DNA from: Tumebacillus algifaecis | GTDB taxonomy: Bacteria > Bacillota > Bacilli > Tumebacillales > Tumebacillaceae | Assembly (NCBI RefSeq): GCF_002243515.1 | Contig: NZ_CP022657.1 | Coordinates: 1,208,001-1,272,000 of the forward strand | Length of the DNA stretch: 64,000 nucleotides | Direction: 5' to 3' | Shown: piece after piece, positions 29,494 to 35,143 of the stretch | How the letters are laid out: each line of letters begins with the position of its first letter | Position numbering within the stretch: the first letter of the stretch is position 1 | The notes under the pieces: generated by a model | What the model was told of the DNA's origin: nothing | Seen by the model: the letters and a program-made list of their open reading frames with translations, nothing else | Database searches by the model: none | Made by a program: the position numbers and the translations under genes

Positions 29494-29543
29494 TGTAGCG
29501 AGCGAAGCCAGATAAACAATCGTTTTGAGTGGAGGAGATCGCC

Positions 29544-30488
29544 ATGACCATGAAGCGTAACAAAATCACTATCGTCGGCGCAGGCTTTACCGGTGCAACC
29601 ACCGCACTTTTCCTGGCACAAAAAGAATTGGGCGACATCGTCCTGCTCGACATCCCGCAATTGGAGAACCCGACAAAAGGCAAGGCGCTCGATATGTTTG
29701 AAGCTACCCCGGTACTTGGGGTCGATTCGAACATCATCGGCACCTCGAACTACGAAGACACAGCTGACTCCAATGTTGTCATCATCACCGCAGGTATTGC
29801 ACGCAAGCCGGGCATGAGCCGCGATGATCTTGTGGCAACCAACGCGGGCATCGTGAAGTCCGTTACTGAGCAAGTGGTGAAGTACTCTCCGAATTCGATC
29901 TTGATCATCCTGTCCAACCCAGTAGACGCGATGACCTATGTCGCTTACAAAACTTCCGGTTTCCCGAAAAACCGTGTTATCGGTCAATCGGGTGTGCTCG
30001 ACACAGCTCGTTTCCGCTCGTTCATCGCGATGGAGCTGGGCGTTTCCGTTGAAGACATCCAAGGCTTCGTGCTTGGAGGACATGGTGACGACATGGTTCC
30101 GCTCGTGCGTTACTCCTACGCTGGCGGCATCCCGCTTGAGAAGCTGATCCCGGCTGAGCGTCTCGAAGAGATCGTACAACGCGCACGCGTTGGCGGCGGT
30201 GAGATTGTGCAACTGCTCGGCAACGGCTCTGCTTACTACGCACCGGCTGCATCGCTCGCTCAGATGACCGAAGCGATCCTCAAAGACAAAAAGCGCATTC
30301 TGCCTTCCATCGCACTGCTCGAAGGCGAATACGGCTACAACGACCTGTTCATGGGCGTACCGACACTGCTTGGCAAAGGCGGTATCGAAAAAGTGTTCGA
30401 ACTCGAACTGACTGCGGACGAAAAAACGGCGTTGGACAAATCTGCTGACTCCGTTCGCAAAGTGATCGAAGTCGTAGAAGGCCGCTAG
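29544..30488 (+). CDS. mdh: Malate dehydrogenase (LDH-like)
   Basis: The 314-residue protein is of the LDH-like MDH type of Bacillus, with the NAD loop [10 protein letters not shown] near 11-20, [34 protein letters not shown], and the catalytic region [10 protein letters not shown] and [11 protein letters not shown], where His and Asp act. It oxidises malate to oxaloacetate. Start ATG 29544 follows GGAGGAGAT; a second ATG six bases later is possible. It is the last gene of the icd-mdh pair and is closed by a strong terminator at 30531. The phoPR genes that follow mdh in Bacillus subtilis are absent here. Confidence 0.96.
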
Positions 30489-30530
30489 TTTCATTGCAAA
30501 AGTATTACAGGTAGATTACATTTTACAAAA

Positions 30531-30567
30531 AATTCCCCGGAATTAGAAAATTCTGGGGAATTTTTTT
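30531..30567 (+). terminator. Terminator of icd-mdh
   Basis: A 14-bp stem from AATTCCCCGGAATT (30531-30544) with one G-T pair, an AGAA loop, and seven T. It is the strongest barrier before the opp leader. Confidence 0.93.
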
Positions 30568-30934
30568 CGTCTCTGTAGTACAATAAAAAAACAAAATCGC
30601 TTAGCAATTCGAATATTTGCACCTTAATAACGTTGGATATTGTAGAAAAATGTCGAATCTATCTAGAAATGTTCTAGAATCCTGACGAATTTTAGCCATA
30701 AATGACTCGCATGTATAACATCTTTATGATATTGTATAACTTGTGGCTGTTCGGTAGTCTTACAGCAAAGATTCAGAATCTAGAAGTTATTCCAAAATGA
30801 CCTCCGAATCTCTTGCATAATCGGCTCGATGCACTCGTAATTTTACTAGTGGACGAGTGAGGCAGATTAGACTATAATTTTTTATGAATAATCTGTCTTT
30901 TAAAGTAGTTTGAATAATTCCTTTTGGGTATTAG
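30568..30934 (+). other. AT-rich intergenic stretch before the opp leader
   Basis: No gene is visible. The stretch is AT-rich and holds a perfect inverted repeat TCTAGAA-ATG-TTCTAGA at 30662-30678, a possible regulator site, and the opp promoter at 30850-30878. Confidence 0.5.
30850..30878 (+). promoter_or_regulatory. Likely promoter of the opp leader and operon
   Basis: TGGACG (30850-30855), 17 bases, TATAAT (30873-30878). This would start a transcript near 30885, leaving a leader of about 370 bases before the oppB start codon. Confidence 0.55.
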
Positions 30935-31172
30935 GCTGGTGCCTTACCATAAATATTACTGCCACTTACATGAAATGACGCAAAGGGGGAACCGGGGAAG
31001 TAGGAGTGAGTGAGGCCCTGACCGAACGGATGTTGAGCGCAACATGTACGAAACCGCTTCCATGAAGGCTGGCTCCGCGGGACTGGGAAAATGTAACAAG
31101 GTTCTCTGAAAGGCTGAGAGCTCAGGCGCTGGGGGTGCCGAGTCTCGCAATTGCCAGCAAAACGCCACTAGC
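30935..31172 (+). ncRNA. Unassigned structured leader RNA upstream of oppBCDF
   Basis: This block is clearly more GC-rich than the AT-rich DNA around it, yet no coding frame fits. GCTGGTG (30935-30941) can pair with CACTAGC (31166-31172, one G-U), which would close the whole element. Inside are ATGTTG-AGCG-CAACAT (31030-31045), GGCGC/GTGCC (31125-31139), CTGA/TCAG around 31113-31124, and purine-rich joining segments such as AAAGGGGGAACCGGGGAAG. Just after it GAGATGCA/TGTATCTC (31182-31211) forms another hairpin, without a T-run. It lies between a good promoter and oppB, so it is probably a riboswitch-like or protein-responsive leader. I could not match it to the c-di-AMP, c-di-GMP, cobalamin, lysine, T-box, TPP or M-box patterns I know. 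Confidence 0.45.
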
Positions 31173-31258
31173 AAAAAGACAGAGATGCAAGTAGACTAAT
31201 AGCTGTATCTCAACCAAAACCACAAATATCAAAAAAAATTTCTTTGGGAGGTGTGGTT

Positions 31259-32188
31259 GTGCTTCGTTTTATCCTCCGTCGTGTTGTTTACGGTTTGATC
31301 ACCCTTTGGGTAATCGTTTCTCTGACCTTTATCTTGATGCATAACCTTCCGGGCGATCCGTTCGCTGCTTCTGAACGTTTGAATGACGCCACTAAAGCGA
31401 TCCTGTTGAAACACTATGGTCTGGATGACCCGATTTGGGTTCAATATGGACGCTACCTGCAAAACATCGTGAGTGGTGACTTAGGTGTATCCTTCTTCTA
31501 TCCAACACGTACAGTTAATGAAATCATTGGACAGACGTTCCCGACGTCAGCTCAACTCGGGCTTTACTCGATCGTTGTCGCGATCACCATCGGTTTGACC
31601 CTTGGTATCGTCGCAGCGCTGAACCACAACAAAGGCTTAGACTACTTTGCAATGTTTACAGCGATCGTCGGTGTCTCCGTTCCGGCCTTCGTAATCGGTC
31701 CGTTGCTCTCGTACTACATCGGGGTGCAGCTCGGATGGTTGCCGCCGGCACTGTGGAAAGGTCCATCATATGTCATCTTGCCGACTATTACGCTCGCCTT
31801 TGGTACATTGGCTACCATGGCACGTATGATGCGTACTTCCATGCTTGATGTCGTCAACCAAGACTACATCAAGACCGCACGTTCGAAAGGTCTTTCCCGC
31901 ATTACGATCGTTGTCAAGCACACCGTTCGTAACGCAATTCTGCCGATCATCACGATCTTGGGCCCGCTCACCGTCAACATCATGACCGGTACCCTCGTCG
32001 TTGAACAGATCTTCGCAGTTCCAGGCATGGGTAAACACTTTGTAAACTCTATCACGACGAATGACTACACGATGATCATGGGTATGACGATCTTCTACTC
32101 GGGTCTGCTCATTCTCGCTATCATCGTGACAGATATCCTTTACGGGGTTGTCGATCCGCGTATCCGTCTGGCGAAAGGTGGGAAGTAA
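31259..32188 (+). CDS. oppB: Oligopeptide ABC transporter permease OppB
   Basis: The 309-residue protein has about six membrane helices and starts RFILRRVVYGLITLWVIVSLTF, as DppB/OppB proteins do. NLPGDPF follows, and the EAA-type coupling loop (YIKTARSKGLSRITIVVKHTVRNA) is near 205-228. With OppC it forms the membrane channel for peptide uptake; a nickel or other substrate cannot be excluded. Start GTG 31259 follows GGGAGGTG at 31246-31253. It is first of four tightly spaced genes (3-14 bases apart or overlapping). No binding-protein gene (oppA) is next to the operon, so that part must be encoded elsewhere. Confidence 0.9.
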   Translation: MLRFILRRVVYGLITLWVIVSLTFILMHNLPGDPFAASERLNDATKAILLKHYGLDDPIWVQYGRYLQNIVSGDLGVSFFYPTRTVNEIIGQTFPTSAQLGLYSIVVAITIGLTLGIVAALNHNKGLDYFAMFTAIVGVSVPAFVIGPLLSYYIGVQLGWLPPALWKGPSYVILPTITLAFGTLATMARMMRTSMLDVVNQDYIKTARSKGLSRITIVVKHTVRNAILPIITILGPLTVNIMTGTLVVEQIFAVPGMGKHFVNSITTNDYTMIMGMTIFYSGLLILAIIVTDILYGVVDPRIRLAKGGK

Positions 32189-32191
32189 ACG

Positions 32192-33106
32192 ATGCAACCT
32201 GTTACTCAAGACAAGTTTAAACTGGCCAATAAGCAATCGGATGCAGAGCGTGTCGTTCGTCCTTCCGTTTCCTACTGGGCAGATGCATGGCGCCGCCTGA
32301 AGAAAAACAAAGTGGCGATGATCGGCTTGGTTCTTTTGACCCTGCTTGCTATATTGGCAATCGCTGGTCCGGAAATCCAACCGTACCATTATCAAGAGCA
32401 AGACCTCTCTGTTCGTAACCAATCCCCGACGCTGGATCATTGGTTCGGCACTGACGATTTTGGTCGTGACCAATGGGTTCGCGTATGGTGGGGCGTTCGT
32501 ATTTCGTTGTTTATCGGTATCGTCGCAGCATCTCTCGACTTTGTAATCGGTATTTTGTATGGCGGTATTTCCGCTTACTTTGGCGGTCGTATCGACGATG
32601 TGATGCAGCGTTTTGTTGAGATCGTATACGGTATTCCTTACCTCATCTTGATCATCTTGTTGATCATGGTCATGGGGCCAGGTATATTCACCATCATTTT
32701 GGCAATGGCTTCTGTCGGTTGGGTCGGTATGGCCCGTCTTGTACGCGGCCAGATTCTGTCCCTGAAAGAGCAAGAGTACGTGCTTGCCGCTCGTACGCTT
32801 GGTGCTAGCCCGTGGCGCATCATCCTGCGTCACTTGATCCCGAACGCACTGGGGATCATCATCGTTCAAATCACGTTTACCGTTCCAGGTGCGATCTTCG
32901 CGGAAGCATTCCTGTCCTTCATCGGTCTGGGGATTAAAGTTCCGCTCGCATCTCTCGGTTCTCTGGTAAACGACGGCGTGCAATCGATGCGTAACTTCCC
33001 GTTCCGTCTGATCTGCCCGTCCCTCGTCTTCGCGTGCATCATGCTGTCCTTCAACCTGTTGGGTGACGGATTGCGCGACGCTCTCGACCCGAGACTTCGT
33101 AAATAA
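32192..33106 (+). CDS. oppC: Oligopeptide ABC transporter permease OppC
   Basis: The 304-residue protein is the second permease. A cytosolic N-terminal stretch ([20 protein letters not shown]) leads into the first helix. [19 protein letters not shown] is the OppC/DppC hallmark near 87-105, and the coupling loop [24 protein letters not shown] is near 195-218. About six membrane helices are present. It partners OppB and docks on the OppD/OppF ATPases. The ATG follows AAAGGTGGGAAG in the end of oppB and lies only 3 bases after the oppB stop, so expression is coupled. Confidence 0.92.
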
Positions 33107-33120
33107 GGAGGGTAATGCCC

Positions 33121-34152
33121 ATGAACAACATCTTGGAAGTCAAAGACTTAAAGGTATCGTTCCACACCTATGCTGGTGAAGTTCAAGCCGTACGTGGCGT
33201 TACCTTCAACTTGAAAAAAGGTGAATGCCTTGCGATCGTGGGTGAGTCCGGTTGCGGTAAATCTGTAACCTCGCAAGCGATCATGCGCCTGATTCAAACC
33301 CCGCCAGGTGAGATCAAAGCAGATTCGCAGATCTTGTTTGACGGTAAAACTGACATCGTTAAGTTGACCGATAGAGAAATGGAGAACGTTCGTGGTTCGG
33401 AGATGGGCATGATCTTCCAAGACCCGATGACTTCTCTGAACCCGACCATGAAAGTTGGCTCTCAGATTGCGGAAGGTCTGATCAAACACCAAGGTCTGTC
33501 CCGTCAAGCAGCTCGTGAGCGTGCGATTGAAATGTTGCGCCTCGTTGGGATTCCGAACCCGGAATCTCGCGTGGAGCAATATCCGCATCAATTTTCCGGC
33601 GGTATGCGTCAGCGTGTCATGATCGCAATCGCGCTGGCGTGCAACCCGAAGCTTTTGATCGCCGACGAGCCGACCACCGCGCTCGACGTTACGATTCAGG
33701 CTCAGATCCTCGACCTGATGCGCGATCTGCAAGAGAAAACCGGTGCTTCGATCATCATCATCACCCATGACTTGGGCGTTGTTGCTGACGTAGCGCAAAA
33801 AGTTGTCGTTATGTACGCTGGTAAAGTTGTAGAGAACGGCCTGATCGACGATGTCTTCTACAACCCGCAACATCCGTACACTTGGGGTCTGTTGCGTTCC
33901 GTTCCGCGTCTGGACAGCTCGAAAGATGAAGATCTCATCCCGATCGAAGGCACACCGCCCGATTTGATCGCACCGCCGAAAGGATGCGCATTCGCACCGC
34001 GCTGCCCGTACGCGATGGAGATCTGCATGGAACAGGATCCGGAAATGACGAAGCTCGACCAAAACCATTCAGCTGCTTGCTGGCTTCTCCACCCGAACGC
34101 TCCTAAAGTTGAACGTCCAGTAGAAGTAGGGGGAGGTCACCACAATGGCTAA
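33121..34152 (+). CDS. oppD: Oligopeptide ABC transporter ATP-binding protein OppD
   Basis: The 343-residue ATPase has Walker A GESGCGKS at 41-48, the ABC signature FSGGMRQR near 159-166, Walker [13 protein letters not shown], and the C-terminal peptide-transporter extension with the Cys cluster C[15 protein letters not shown] that holds an iron-sulphur cluster in some Opp/Dpp ATPases. It powers peptide import with OppF. The start is ATG 33121, 8 bases from AAGGAGGG; ATG 33115 would be too close. The gene overlaps oppF by 8 bases. The extra Cys residues are visible; the cluster itself is inferred. Confidence 0.93.
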
Positions 34153-35143
34153 TGCTACAACCACCGCTGCAAACTCGACCCAAACGGGTACGGATACCAT
34201 TCTTGAGGTCAAAAACCTCTCGAAACATTTTGACTTGGGCCGCGGTACGATTCTGAAGGCTGTTGATAACGTGTCCTTCTCGATCAAGCGTGGTGAAACT
34301 TTCGGTCTGGTAGGCGAATCAGGTTGCGGTAAGTCCACCACCGGACGTACGATCATCCGTCTGTATGATGCAACTCAAGGTACCGTTAAGTTCAACGGCA
34401 AAGATGTGCACAAAGTGCAAGGTCGCGACTTGAAGCAATTCAACCGCGACATGCAGATGATCTTCCAAGACCCGTATGCATCGCTCAACCCGCGGATGAC
34501 TGTCGGCGACATCATCGGTGAAGGTATCGACATTCACAAGTTGCTCTCCGGCCGTCAACGCCTGGATCGCATCTACGAACTGTTGCGTACCGTTGGTTTG
34601 AACGAAGAACACGCATCTCGTTTCCCGCATGAATTCTCCGGCGGTCAACGTCAGCGTATCGGTATCGCACGCTCTTTGGCGATCGAACCGCAGTTCATCA
34701 TTGCGGACGAACCGATCTCCGCACTGGACGTGTCGATCCAAGCACAGGTTGTTAACCTGATGAAGAAATTGCAAGAAGAGCGCGGTTTGACCTACCTCTT
34801 CATCGCGCATGACTTGGCGATGGTTAAGCACATTTCTGACCGGATCGGCGTTATGTACCTCGGCTCACTCGTCGAAGTGACTGAGGCAACCGAACTGTAT
34901 CGCAAGCCGATGCATCCGTACACGGAAGCACTGCTTTCTGCAATCCCGATTCCGGACCCGGAAATCGAGCGCACCCGTGAACGCATCATCCTGGAAGGCG
35001 ACGTTCCGTCTCCGGTTAACCCGCCGTCCGGTTGCCGTTTCCGTACGCGTTGCCCGAAAGCAATGCCGGAATGCGCACAGATCACTCCGGAACTGAAAGA
35101 AGTTGAGCCGGGCCACCATGTGGCTTGCCTGCTCTACAGCTAA
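34145..35143 (+). CDS. oppF: Oligopeptide ABC transporter ATP-binding protein OppF
   Basis: The 332-residue ATPase has Walker A GESGCGKS at 57-64, signature FSGGQRQR near 163-170, Walker [13 protein letters not shown], and the same C-terminal Cys cluster as OppD ([14 protein letters not shown]). An unusual Thr/Asn/Ala-rich N-terminal lead of about 18 residues precedes the ATPase core. It completes the OppBCDF importer. GGGGGAGGTC stands before the ATG inside the end of oppD. A compact terminator follows 15 bases after the stop, closing the operon. Confidence 0.93.

Follow-up and report, generated by a model that had tools for sequence, protein, structure and literature searches.

A general kind of control region in Bacillota is the long regulatory 5' leader that precedes a transporter operon. 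Ligand-binding aptamers look like conserved islands split by variable segments, and a GC-rich stretch amid AT-rich intergenic sequence is a common clue to a structured RNA. With regard to oligopeptide permease genes, RNA thermometers exist upstream of oppA and oppF elsewhere, according to a part of PMC11342760, and Spo0A-controlled promoters carry, in the relevant part of PMC3485338, a 0A box (TGTCGAA) whose core has G2, C4, and G5. The region that we describe here, which lies between an mdh-type gene and oppB, resembles the long leaders of Bacillota in that it is non-coding, precedes an ABC importer operon, is syntenic, and includes the ribosome-binding site. It differs from them in that its islands are conserved in sequence but lack covariation support and in that it was seen in one family only.

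The window, i.e., the whole 64-kb stretch of DNA that was analyzed, corresponds to G000:C1:1208001-1272000 in the 4.52-Mb genome of Tumebacillus algifaecis. The mdh-type gene is the same upstream neighbor in all seven genomes of the family that were compared, and its intrinsic terminator (30532-30567) is predicted to set the opp transcript apart from mdh. The operon downstream had been described beforehand as oppBCDF, and the Pfam domains are those of an oligopeptide importer; for its two permeases, the best NCBIfam models are Opp3B and Opp3C, each scoring under its curated cut-off. The first start codon of oppB is probably GTG 31259, because all seven homologues have a 309-codon open frame from this position, preceded by a ribosome-binding site that is identical among them. 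This places the start 86 bases after CACTAGC, in good agreement with the spacing of about 85 bases initially estimated.

As also proposed, the operon has no oppA: no binding-protein gene adjoins it, and the genome contains six PF00496 genes elsewhere, with OppA-type genes distant from the operon and outside the window at G000:C1 3175830, 3204356, 3206552, and 3685295. Several scattered binding proteins possibly share one permease. In other families of the order, five oppB upstream regions were compared; a PF00496 protein is encoded directly 5' of oppB in three of these (G009, G010, and G012), mdh lies 5' of oppB in G007, and neither is found in G013. The preliminary description tied the leader to the missing oppA. 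The absence of oppA stands, but the analysis gave no tie between it and the leader: the six stretches fetched upstream of OppA-type genes (five with an apparent gene start and one, L095, without a clear one) gave only chance matches of 10 to 12 bases, and a leader common to oppB and these six was rejected.

Table 1. Positions in the window of the features of the mdh-oppB region and of the genes that flank it
Feature	Position	Strand	Basis or remark
mdh-type gene (lactate/malate dehydrogenase)	29529..30488	+	Pfam Ldh_1_N and Ldh_1_C; upstream neighbor
mdh intrinsic terminator, ATTCCCC...GGGGAAT then T run	30532..30567	+	Sequence; conserved hairpin
Conserved upstream DNA block	30640..30689	+	Operator-like and 0A-box-like motifs; seven-genome alignment, up to 19/24 columns
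Promoter-like signal CTCGCA-18-TATTGT, TGn before second hexamer	30706..30735	+	7/7 family genomes
Putative 5' leader of oppBCDF	30741..31258	+	Conserved promoter-like signal
Inverted repeat CACTCGT...ACGAGTG	30832..30859	.	RNA hairpin or DNA operator; overlaps first hexamer of TGGACG-17-TATAAT
TGGACG-17-TATAAT, possible second promoter	30850..30878	+	10 of 12 matches
AT-rich terminator-like hairpin AGGCAGATTA...TAATCTGTCT then TTT	30860..30901	+	T. algifaecis and its two closest relatives
Island II, hairpin H1: GGTA(TT)AGGC loop GCCTTACC then ATA	30926..30951	+	
GC-rich variable middle	30952..31149	+	Hardly conserved except for island III; no excess folding
Island III, CGCTTCCAT	31055..31063	+	7/7
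Island IV, ATTGCCAGCAAAACGCCACTAGC...GTAGACTAA...ATCTCAA	31150..31213	+	64-base 3' block
Ribosome-binding site TTTGGGAGGTGTGGTT	31243..31258	+	Identical in 7/7
oppBCDF	31259..35143	+	31259-32188, 32192-33106, 33115-34152, 34145-35143; Pfam

By BLAST, the mdh-oppB element was matched in 7 of the 14 genomes of the order, comprising all 7 genomes of the family and 0 of the 7 outside it, and in every family genome it sits between mdh and oppB. A covariance model built from the seven family sequences scored these members at 188 to 261 bits; because members fit such a model by construction, only the score gap to non-members is informative. Among 391 other Bacilli genomes, searched with stricter filters, none exceeded 21.5 bits (45 had a match at E ≤0.1, and the top match extended across 50 bases), and the top match outside the family in a search of the order with laxer filters had 16.9 bits. 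Judging from score and length, we take these weak matches as chance. A GTDB pattern search with the best conserved hairpin, from which the genome of the window and those close to it may be missing, returned four species and no others: Tumebacillus lacus, T. avium, T. flagellatus, and T. permanentifrigoris. Using block I of one family genome (G001) as a BLAST query, we found matches in five of the six other family genomes and none in other families; the window's own genome was missed at that cut-off, although the block is present there by alignment, and one additional match within G001 (E = 0.059) was taken as chance.

The nearest candidate outside the family was the gap between mdh and oppB in G007, which has the same synteny in another family. 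A profile search for a leader homologue there was not significant (E = 0.88), and only the promoter spacing and a ribosome-binding site recur, with the other parts of the leader unrecognizable. A mobile or repeated element was also considered and rejected, as the element is single copy in its own genome at the cut-offs used, and a mobile origin was set aside because the matches in the plasmid collection (1 record) and the phage collection (2 records) were all short and at chance level. Among the papers searched, none mentions both Tumebacillus and a riboswitch. Overall, the stretch lies in the same place in 7/7 genomes, is constrained at the nucleotide level, does not code for protein, and is a real, evolutionarily conserved control region.

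To describe what is conserved, we aligned the whole mdh-oppB intergenic region of the seven genomes (609 to 770 bases) and took fourfold oppB sites as the yardstick of constraint, of which 27 of 111 (24%, or about 6 of 24) are identical in all seven. Per 24 columns, the highest number identical in 7/7 genomes was 19 for each of the upstream block, the promoter signal, and hairpin H1; for the ribosome-binding site it was 17, and for islands III and IV it was 12. Windows of the GC-rich middle clear of the islands had 0 to 3 identical columns of 24, and conservation was as poor in 30585-30629 and 30750-30821. The eight pairs of H1 are identical in all seven genomes, its loop of 3 or 4 bases varies in sequence and has one base fewer in three genomes, and its two-base bulge is asymmetric. 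From CACTRGC to GTAGACTAA, the distance is 25 bases in 7/7 genomes, and from CGCTTCCAT to CACTRGC it is 111, 111, 111, 110, 82, 82, and 82 bases across the seven. The spacer between CGCTTCCAT and the 3' block has the same length, 57 bases, in L008, L006, and L007, with 35 to 54% identity.

The preliminary description had singled out a GC-rich, non-coding block in AT-rich DNA, and both properties hold. G+C content is 57% in two windows over 30960-31139, compared with 30 to 38% across 30540-30959 (six 120-base windows). Neither strand is coding, as shown by indels among homologues that are not all multiples of three and by CGCTTCCAT falling in differing frames. What is conserved, as far as the alignment can tell, is a distant promoter-like signal together with a few short islands, rather than a folded RNA switch. 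The locus also shows that GC-rich sequence amid AT-rich intergenic DNA can be a poorly conserved part of an otherwise conserved control region.

The promoter initially proposed, TGGACG-17-TATAAT, is a good sequence match (10 of 12) but is kept in only four of the seven genomes, and a promoter scan counted 5 such sites in 1 kb versus 2.0 ± 1.5 in shuffles. About 140 bases upstream, inside a conserved block of about 110 bases, CTCGCA-18-TATTGT is present in all seven genomes, and CTCGCA-18-TATAGT, with equal spacing, is found in the mdh-oppB gap of G007. Although CTCGCA is a poor match to the sigma-A -35 hexamer and the proposed promoter is closer to consensus, transcription most likely starts near 30741, given that the upstream signal recurs in 7/7 genomes and in G007 versus 4/7 for the other. 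TGGACG-17-TATAAT may work in the four genomes that keep it. The putative leader would thus measure 518 bases here and 401 to 518 bases across the seven genomes.

Several elements surround these two signals. The inverted repeat at 30832-30859 is, by eye, partly compensated in relatives, without a common register. The AT-rich hairpin at 30860-30901, AGGCAGATTA...TAATCTGTCTTTT, which T. algifaecis has in common with its two closest relatives, carries a U tail and surrounds the TATAAT hexamer, and its 3' arm, TCTGTCTTTT, has a 10-base complementarity to 31174-31183. A scan of 30500-31500 scored no intrinsic terminator, although it was limited to loops of ≤8 bases, failed to detect the terminator of mdh as well, and did not cover the longer loop of the terminator-like hairpin at 30860-30901.

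Upstream of the conserved promoter signal, the conserved block contains TTGTAGAA (30640), TGTCGAA (30651), AGAAATGTTCTAG (30665), and TGACGAA (30683). An imperfect palindrome occupies 30665-30677, reading GAAATATTCTAG in six of the seven genomes and GAAATGTTCTAG here. The arrangement of TGTCGAA and TGACGAA 5' of a promoter signal is like that of Spo0A promoters as presented in part of PMC3485338; TGACGAA is found in all seven genomes, and the TGTCGAA box keeps G2, C4, and G5 in five, the C being lost in two. The candidate sites here differ from those of Spo0A promoters in that the motif is common by chance. Because TGNCGAA occurs 58 times on both strands of the 64-kb window, we treat these 0A-box-like motifs only as a lead.

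The explanation that we favor, with about as much confidence as doubt, is a promoter and long 5' leader of oppBCDF, lineage-specific in the Tumebacillus family, whose islands bind a trans-acting factor. The analysis shows that the region is conserved, syntenic, and non-coding and that its core has no excess structure; the transcription start, the regulator, and the binding of a factor are putative. Transcription would most likely start near 30741 from the CTCGCA-18-TATTGT signal, and a DNA-binding regulator may act through the conserved block at 30640-30689. The leader of about 518 bases would carry H1, CGCTTCCAT, the 3' block, and the ribosome-binding site as islands spaced by variable filler. 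These islands would most likely bind a protein or a small RNA, and the bound factor may tune the translation or stability of the opp mRNA. For H1, an RNA hairpin seems an easier reading than a DNA operator, since a stem that never varies is combined with a loop that can be one base shorter and with a bulge on one side only. Alternatively, islands II to IV could be sites in DNA. We read the control region as ordinary in kind, that is, a lineage-specific promoter plus leader. If the islands act as RNA, the locus would offer a compact system for asking how a shared peptide permease matches several scattered binding proteins.

One candidate for the trans-acting partner was set aside: an RsaE/RoxS small RNA scored over the 79-bit gathering score in none of the seven genomes (best, 29.7), in a search whose controls included B. 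subtilis among those detected.

The layout of islands and variable segments resembles that of aptamers, and the leader might accordingly be a new riboswitch-like ligand-binding RNA, with islands II, III, and IV as its core and a variable middle made of interchangeable helices free of sequence constraint. H1 forms a hairpin in all seven genomes, and the small hairpin that follows it shows one double change by eye, being AAAGU/ACUUU in a single genome but AAGGU/ACCUU in two others. In the alignment of all seven genomes, the windows from 30906 and 31180 had z scores of -2.0 and -2.7, with other leader windows at -1.6 to +1.7. However, folding of the core, from H1 to CACTAGC, was no better than that of shuffles in any genome (single-sequence z of +0.28 to +1.32; mean, +0.82). 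For this genome, the stretch 30880-31260, thought at first to be structured, folded at -105.2 kcal/mol versus -102.4 ± 5.8 for shuffles (z = -0.48). The consensus structure of the seven homologues contained no covarying pair: RNAalifold kept only H1, with 0 covarying pairs of 8, and the pairs of H1 never vary. In sub-alignments of three to four sequences, double changes were scattered, some of them near 30832-30859, without a common helix. The spacers of 57 bases, equal in length yet poorly alike, have no common fold, and the element is found before one operon in one family only.

A helix GCTGGTG/CACTAGC had been thought to close the block. It is complete in one of the seven genomes, its sixth pair (T-A) being broken to A-A in four and its fourth pair missing in three for want of a base; it shows no compensatory change and also overlaps a local hairpin that is invariant in 7/7. 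With a core that lacks excess folding, a closing helix that is not conserved, and a GC-rich part that is among the least conserved, the structured regulatory RNA originally envisaged is not supported. Of the broader suggestion of a new regulatory RNA before oppB, a conserved non-coding element without an Rfam counterpart is what survives; its structured character is unsupported.

Outside the core, some excess structure is predicted, chiefly for T. algifaecis and the two genomes closest to it. For the mdh terminator, which served as the positive control, z scores from alignment shuffling were -4.0, -5.6, and -5.2 in three alignments. In the alignment of these three genomes, windows in 30787-30966 reached -3.4 and -4.8, the latter at 30847-30966, which spans the 30860-30901 hairpin; 30667-30786 had -2.9, two windows from 31083 on had -3.0 and -2.8, and those between 30907 and about 31145 had -1.2, -0.3, and -1.6. 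Leader windows of the other subgroup of three genomes ranged from -0.6 to +0.5. Single sequences from the putative start to H1 had a mean z of -2.1 (range, -5.3 to -0.2), and the last 110 bases had -2.4 to -3.5 in T. algifaecis and the two genomes closest to it, compared with +0.5 to +1.9 in the remaining four. Therefore, some RNA structure may matter. Taken together, we regard a riboswitch-like RNA as unlikely. Its more specific form, an undescribed Tumebacillus-only sensor RNA that would adjust the peptide permease to several separately encoded binding proteins, with islands II, III, and IV as the core and GC-rich arms free in sequence but, within a lineage, not in length, keeps a low probability, slightly under that of the general case, because the power of seven sequences that form only two or three clusters is low.

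The same conserved letters might instead work at the DNA level only, as sites for regulators or roadblocks downstream of the promoter, with no role for the leader RNA. The longest strongly conserved block is indeed DNA that includes the upstream promoter signal and the sequence above it, and inverted repeats flank TGGACG-17-TATAAT. Against this, the two-base bulge of H1 is asymmetric and its loop is one base shorter in three of the seven genomes, so that half-site spacing would change, and the ribosome-binding region is conserved along with island IV. We regard control through DNA sites only as unlikely.

Translation control through hiding of the SD, by a switch or a thermometer, would require a partner such as AUCUCAA or CGCUUCC to pair with UUUGGGAGG. 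By eye, UCUCAAA-UUUGGGA pairing over 6 or 7 bases is possible in five of the seven genomes, and thermometers upstream of opp genes exist elsewhere, as given in part of PMC11342760. This leader is like those in being leader RNA before opp genes, and unlike them, as far as that part of PMC11342760 goes, in having no Rfam match and an SD that is not hidden in the folds predicted for T. algifaecis and its two closest relatives. In full-leader folds of these three genomes, the SD is unpaired at 0.62 to 0.69 versus 0.21 to 0.27 in shuffles; in the other four it is near shuffles and clearly hidden only in L007 (0.02 versus 0.18, with 1 of 20 shuffles as low in openness). SD hiding is thus quite improbable.

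Control of the operon by a leader peptide or by an upstream open reading frame is more improbable still. By eye, CGCTTCCAT forms the end of a short frame at 31006-31065 in T. algifaecis and its two closest relatives, but in other genomes the conserved bases lie in different frames, starts and stops are not kept, and indels are not all multiples of three. A known RNA class in diverged form is hardly credible and is refuted at the sensitivity used, since the leader's likeness to the glycine riboswitch GGAnGA variant (RF03166), at 31166-31186 within a match over 31075-31186, scores 11.4 bits versus a gathering score of 110 and its 3' letters are not kept in L006. The earlier statement that no known riboswitch class fits is in accord with Rfam, which gave 0 matches at gathering score across the 64-kb window, no known class over 30700-31300 even at E ≤10 (two chance-level matches, one of them this glycine-GGAnGA match), and nothing relevant in the six homologous loci at E ≤5.

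Within the T. algifaecis genome, the covariance model gave one further match, at G000:C1:1395811 (21.1 bits), which was rejected as part of a protein gene with an 11-residue repeat; no second copy of the element was found at the cut-offs used. The gene in question (L087 284-922, G000:C1 ~1395783-1396421) encodes a 212-residue protein with many copies of DERLSKQIQEV, which appear in the DNA as a 33-base tandem repeat.
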